DNA of 64,000 nucleotides from Sphingomonas sp. 32-66-10 (GTDB taxonomy: Bacteria; Pseudomonadota; Alphaproteobacteria; Sphingomonadales; Sphingomonadaceae): assembly GCA_002280565.1 (NCBI GenBank), contig NCEF01000004.1, positions 90,258-154,257 of the forward strand. The letters are read 5' to 3'. The position numbers and the translations under genes were made by a program. Positions within the stretch are counted from its first letter, which is position 1, and each line of letters opens with the position of its first letter. A model generated the notes under the pieces. The model was not told the origin of the DNA. It was given only the letters and a program-made list of their open reading frames with translations, and did no database searches. This document shows positions 2,862 to 3,088 of this stretch, piece after piece.

Positions 2862-3088
2862 GAATCGGTCGCAGCGTCGCTGGCCAGCAGGAGCCGTGCT
2901 GTCGCTTTGTAAATTTTTGACAGATGCGCGAGCACCGGAATCGTCATCAGCGAGTCTTTTTCGCCACACCCCAAACCTAGTGCCTGTGGATAAGTTTCGG
3001 ACTCAACATGTGGATAAGTCCCGAAATGTTCCGGCAAGTTAACGGAATCCCAAGCCTTTTCGTTAACCAATGTTCGCTTGACGGAGTC
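2862..3088 (+). promoter_or_regulatory. ccrM upstream control region with six GANTC sites
   Basis: The 344 bases between the aceA and ccrM starts hold no convincing gene. GANTC, the methylation site of CcrM itself, occurs at 2862, 2938, 2952, 3000, 3045 and 3084; roughly one would be expected by chance at this composition. Two GTTAAC palindromes lie at 3038 and 3062. The stretch also carries two perfect DnaA boxes, listed separately, and an AT-rich tract around 2906-2924. In Caulobacter, ccrM transcription is set by CtrA, GcrA and promoter methylation; by analogy this looks like a methylation-sensitive cell-cycle promoter. Confidence 0.55.
2985..3017 (-). promoter_or_regulatory. Two perfect DnaA boxes
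   Basis: TGTGGATAA at 2985-2993 and 3009-3017 are both exact reverse complements of the consensus DnaA box TTATCCACA. They lie in the same orientation, 24 bases apart. A weaker box, TTCGCCACA, lies at 2960-2968 in the other orientation. They sit 118-150 bases upstream of the ccrM start, so DnaA could regulate ccrM, or the site could titrate DnaA. Confidence 0.7.

Follow-up and report, generated by a model that had tools for sequence, protein, structure and literature searches.

Two exact DnaA boxes lie ahead of ccrM in this Sphingomonas genome, and the question is what they do there: they could place ccrM under direct DnaA control, they could titrate DnaA, or they could mark an origin-like site, all three of which the original prediction left as options. 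The window, by which we mean the whole 64,000-nucleotide stretch of DNA that was analysed, belongs to a draft assembly (2.68 Mb in 83 contigs, 83% complete), and its closest named relatives are Sphingomonas. The features discussed below are collected in Table 1. The gene downstream of the boxes is indeed ccrM, as had been read from the sequence: the best family of its product is NF050803 (E 1e-182), with a score of 606.8 bits that lies below the 830 cut-off of that Caulobacter model. The divergent genes aceA and ccrM are separated by an intergenic region of 344 bp, and folP follows ccrM. In the DnaA encoded by this genome, the domain IV segment is kept and contains RDHSTVIHA.

Table 1. Positions of genes, promoter elements and candidate binding sites around ccrM in the window
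Feature	Position	Strand	Remark
aceA (isocitrate lyase)	1195..2790	minus	divergent neighbour of ccrM; not a conserved partner
GANTC site (GAGTC)	2952..2956		conserved upstream position
DnaA box 1, exact TTATCCACA	2985..2993	minus	class A (see text); start 93 bp ahead of first base of -35 TTGAC
Right arm of GANTC dyad (GACTCAACATGT) remaining	3000..3011		left GAGTC arm missing
DnaA box 2, exact TTATCCACA	3009..3017	minus	start 69 bp ahead of TTGAC
Two GTTAAC words, possible CtrA half-sites	3038..3067		
GANTC site (GAATC)	3045..3049		
Predicted ccrM promoter	3078..3106	plus	-35 TTGACG at 3078-3083; TTGAC aligned across family
GANTC site (GAGTC)	3084..3088		in spacer, immediately past -35
-10 of ccrM	3101-3106	plus	assumed from 17-bp spacer, poor match; predicted start near 3113
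ccrM (GANTC adenine methyltransferase)	3135..4280	plus	best family NF050803

The pair of exact consensus boxes, in the same orientation and 24 bp apart, was reproduced. The window has two exact copies of the word TTATCCACA and no more, against 0.07 expected, and none of 100 shuffled windows reached two copies; together the boxes span 33 bp. Promoters under DnaA control are expected to carry a high-affinity DnaA box, and two exact boxes are present ahead of this one. Genome-wide there are eight exact copies, two of them these, against seven of the reversed control word, so that the enrichment is at the ccrM site and not across the whole genome. Two accessory features that had been described near the pair fared less well. 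The supposed weaker third box, TTCGCCACA at 2960-2968, is doubtful and was set aside, having two mismatches and being part of a GnCACACC-like element present in most of the family alignment, including loci that have no DnaA box. The AT-rich tract is weak, with 50-bp windows across the intergenic region ranging from 38 to 56% AT. We also note a GCCACACC-like element at 2963-2970, after the first GANTC site; most of the aligned family sequences keep it, whether or not they have a DnaA box.

We examined the sequence ahead of ccrM, at most 300 bp per locus, at 81 loci, namely the window and 80 named loci. An exact DnaA box was found in 33 of the 81 regions (37 boxes in total), against an expectation of 0.05 boxes from dinucleotide shuffles, or of 0.04 if the remainder of these loci sets the rate (one box seen in 568,857 bp). 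With the first base of TTGAC (the ccrM -35) as reference point, the boxes fall into two classes. In class A, with 12 loci including the window, the box starts 87-99 bp before TTGAC; in class B, with 20 loci, it starts 28-35 bp after TTGAC, which, for a 17-bp spacer, puts its first base at the -10 end and makes it span the predicted start site. Class B boxes are on the minus strand at +28 to +32 in 17 cases and on the plus strand at +34 or +35 in three. The remaining 49 loci belong to neither class; in one of them (L058) the upstream region holds a box at another place, and Sphingomonas melonis (L023), also among them, has no exact box. Among the 81 loci only L050, L053 and L072 have a box on the plus strand at +29 to +38, and none of the 27 matches listed for this pattern in 147 genomes of the order lay at ccrM when compared by eye.

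The second box, at -69, is shared by the window and L009, which has both boxes at the positions seen in the window and does so without aceA beside ccrM. The box 2 equivalent is exact in L009 and G165 and reads TGTGGACAA in G262. Within the genus, the class A site holds an exact box in seven of ten genomes and the single-mismatch form TGTGGACAA in one; no exact box was found at this site in G017 and G174. In one of the seven, G250, the box is flipped, which is expected for a binding site and not for descent alone. Conservation of both boxes upstream of ccrM had been named as a check on the idea; an exact box is present at those 33 loci, with its position locked to the -35 in the 12 class A and 20 class B loci. 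On this sequence evidence we regard the box as a conserved, promoter-locked site in part of the Sphingomonadaceae, and the putative input as one that changes place or orientation between lineages, yet remains in the ccrM promoter.

The boxes go with ccrM and not with its divergent neighbor, since box-bearing named loci such as L009 lack aceA beside ccrM. By tblastn, aceA is next to ccrM in the window and in its nearest relative G262 (CcrM 93% identical) and at none of the 80 named loci. As a target of the boxes aceA was rejected.

We next give the specificity of these patterns across genomes. CcrM is present in 134 of the 147 genomes of the order. The class B pattern gave 38 matches in 37 genomes, 25 of them at ccrM, all in the window's family, and 13 elsewhere, with 10 in all for the reversed control (counted match by match). 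The looser class A pattern gave 73 matches in 53 genomes, seven at ccrM and 66 elsewhere, with about 33 for the control counted in the same way; of the 73, the 16 from the window's own family were compared computationally with the ccrM places and the other 57 by eye, none of the latter matching. The 25 class B and seven class A matches at ccrM mean that 32 of the 64 family genomes with ccrM carry one class or the other, and two more family genomes have an exact box, flipped in G250 and at +12 in G235; these counts come from 56 of the 64 genomes, in which the ccrM upstream region was read or matched by a class pattern. Neither class was found at ccrM among the sampled genomes of the order's other families within the 147. 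Across the class, 97 of the 115 genomes searched have CcrM, and among the best 30 loci, which were those analysed, 28 lay outside the family; two of these 28 had an exact box at ccrM. In one locus from another family of the class (L152), an exact DnaA box lies over the predicted -10.

Away from ccrM, the box-bearing places of six genomes share families comprising the hemE-side genes, ftsA/ftsZ, ligA, a diguanylate cyclase and plasmid-type replication genes; the ccrM box is in all six because five of the six were picked for carrying it. In two erythrobacter genomes, G003 (L103, 1501-1509) and G002 (L117), an exact box lies between ftsA and ftsZ, ahead of ftsZ. The loci L003 (G000:C9) and L004 (G000:C75) have exact boxes near a replication initiator and iteron-like repeats and appear to be plasmid-type replicons; the initiator (Pfam RPA) was identified by scan in L003 only.

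The promoter in which the boxes sit is rich in GANTC. In 24,275 bp of ccrM upstream sequence we counted 487 GANTC sites vs 113 in shuffles, with preferred places near -128, -99, -79, -60, +8 and +19 relative to TTGAC. At least one spacer GANTC is found in 75 of the 81 loci and in 21 of the 28 loci of the class's other families. In the window, the GAGTC at 3084 lies between the -35 and the assumed -10, as in GcrA/GANTC-dependent promoters, and a TTGAC -35 followed by a spacer GANTC fits a putative methylation-sensitive promoter of the GcrA type. In L129-L156, the 28 loci outside the family, TTGAC is followed 18-21 bases later by GANTC in 18 cases, which suggests that the class may have had a ccrM core promoter with GANTC for a long time. 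No full CtrA site (TTAA-N7-TTAA, or with N6) was found in 2791-3134, which holds only the GTTAAC words; CtrA binding at these as half-sites is possible.

The GANTC sites at -99 and -79 form an inverted repeat in the family alignment, roughly AGATNTNGAGTC-N15-GACTCNANATCT. A pattern for the core and right arm of this dyad gave 47 matches in 40 of the 147 genomes, 44 of them at ccrM (38 genomes), and the reversed control gave one; the dyad is nearly private to ccrM. The pattern was present in none of the seven class A genomes vs 20 of the 25 class B genomes, and among the named loci the left arm was present in 2 of 12 in class A, 15 of 20 in class B and 32 of the 49 in neither class. Where the left arm would lie in the window, box 1 takes up part of the space, while box 2 extends into the right flank. 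There are also Sphingomonas loci in which the left arm and the box are both absent, so that replacement of the dyad by the boxes is our reading of the alignment, and unproven.

We consider it probable that the pair of boxes serves as an operator through which DnaA directly regulates ccrM on this GANTC-rich promoter, and direct control appears the better supported among the options raised originally. In its favour, boxes keep fixed distances from the -35 in many relatives and do not accompany aceA; against it are the 49 loci in neither class, the absence of both classes at ccrM in the sampled genomes of the order's other families, and the looseness of the class A pattern (66 of 73 matches elsewhere). 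The mechanism we propose is that DnaA would bind the ccrM boxes and alter ccrM transcription, so that ccrM would read two inputs, replication initiation (through DnaA) and fork passage (through hemimethylated GANTC); we propose two because the spacer GANTC fits a methylation-sensitive, GcrA-type promoter. Active DnaA at initiation would hold ccrM off, a sign toward which we lean only modestly, and this repression would prolong the hemimethylation of new DNA, with ccrM expression rising once DnaA is inactivated. In class B, DnaA on a box across the predicted start site would block RNA polymerase, and it is this placement that argues for repression; class A placement leaves the sign open. In class A, and so in the window, the boxes are 69-93 bp ahead of the -35, where the GANTC dyad is broken, and DnaA may have taken over the upstream operator. 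A broader scenario, which we put forward tentatively and with considerable reserve, is that in the Sphingomonadaceae DnaA and not CtrA times ccrM, that this input was gained, moved or flipped repeatedly inside a single promoter, and that the Sphingomonas branch replaced a dyad serving, probably, a methylation-sensitive regulator.

A possible objection concerns the sign, in that DnaA might bind and activate ccrM, with the class A boxes as an upstream activator site. These lie roughly 96-128 bp ahead of the assumed start, and in Caulobacter DnaA motifs are found at -82 of podJ P2 and at -52 and -83 of mipZ P2 (PMC4287350). We find activation somewhat unlikely, however, given class B boxes that span the predicted start site, the usual place for a repressor, and given that activation at initiation would bring CcrM early and shorten the hemimethylated period. 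Another objection would keep the word and change its reader: since the boxes lie within a conserved block together with neighboring elements, the protein that binds there could be a different one, or the nine-base word might be kept by common descent only. This we hold to be quite unlikely. The same word appears in either orientation and at several places, and it also appears in the hemE interval and before ftsZ; as for descent, a quick CcrM tree, many of whose forks are open, requires no fewer than 12 changes among the box states (A, B, neither), six each for class A and class B, gains and losses being indistinguishable.

Titration of DnaA by a datA-like or DARS-like site, with no regulation of ccrM, strikes us as very unlikely. 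The boxes are exact and strong, there are two in the window, and a high-affinity box always binds some DnaA; yet there are only one or two boxes, and titration needs neither a fixed distance from the -35 nor the core-promoter place of class B. The last reading, which places all or part of the chromosome origin at this site, we regard as scarcely credible, despite two exact boxes together and a window GC skew that turns from negative to positive, because hemE has boxes of its own beside it on contig C6, and the Caulobacter origin adjoins hemE (PMC8959179).

The ccrM site is probably not the chromosome origin, and the origin-like option of the original prediction loses ground accordingly, DnaA-box words also lying next to hemE on another contig. 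An oriC at ccrM was rejected on its neighborhood: ccrM is on contig C78 and the hemE neighborhood is on C6, where one of the eight exact genomic boxes lies between hemE and ppsR/maf, together with near matches. In each of six genomes the hemE locus has 2-4 words that keep CCACA intact and deviate at two positions or fewer, a count that has no shuffle control; an exact box is among the words in three of the six, and in G165 all four words have two mismatches. In single-contig relatives the distance separating hemE from ccrM is about 172 kb (G162), 568 kb (G017) and, if the contig is circular, 477 kb (G174). The sign change in the window GC skew falls at about 8000-12000. The GC skew of G162, sampled coarsely at 20 places of 10 kb, was too weak for origin placement.

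If direct DnaA input to ccrM is true, replication start may directly time DNA methylation in sphingomonads, and this would explain how some of them still couple methylation to replication; it would also be a case of a regulatory input shifting place within one promoter, with the target apparently kept. The idea is not valid for every species of the group, since S. melonis lacks an exact box.

In Caulobacter the late timing of ccrM is supplied by CtrA. Late ccrM expression there leaves new DNA hemimethylated until replication is over (PMC8116508), and the GANTC methylation state probably affects ccrM itself (PMC3973325). In S. melonis, loss of ctrA has no negative effect on growth (PMC8116508). 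Among the matches listed in a search of the open-licence literature, we found no title or abstract reporting experimental DnaA control of ccrM, subscription papers being outside its scope; nor did the portions of that literature covered describe the sphingomonad box architecture or a ccrM-only GANTC dyad lost with class A.

Caulobacter crescentus DnaA is a transcription factor for gcrA, ftsZ, podJ and replisome genes, and these targets are cell-cycle genes whose promoters contain a DnaA motif, in many cases along with GANTC sites (PMC4287350), a combination that the ccrM promoter of the window shares. Caulobacter ccrM itself is described as a CtrA target (PMC4287350), whereas the window ccrM has exact DnaA boxes and lacks a full CtrA site; the earlier remark that a DnaA-ccrM link falls outside the Caulobacter model agrees with this. 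As for GcrA, of which ccrM is a predicted core target in many orders (PMC7987155), the spacer GANTC after TTGAC at 75 of 81 loci is like that of GcrA/CcrM-dependent promoters (PMC7987155, PMC3667746), and the accounts of such promoters in those two papers, unlike ours, do not describe DnaA boxes at ccrM. The closest precedent is the prediction in 2010 of DnaA sites at ccrM in some alphaproteobacteria, mainly where CtrA sites are missing, with the DnaA-ccrM link drawn for cluster C (Magnetospirillum, Rhodospirillum) from a DnaA weight matrix that had low specificity by the authors' own account (Brilli, PMC2877005). Our case is like that prediction in having DnaA motifs ahead of ccrM while a full CtrA site is missing, and unlike it in concerning sphingomonads, in the fixed positions of the boxes and in the dyad, which the sections of that study covered here do not describe. 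The sphingomonad architecture may be new, DnaA-to-ccrM control having already been predicted in other alphaproteobacteria.
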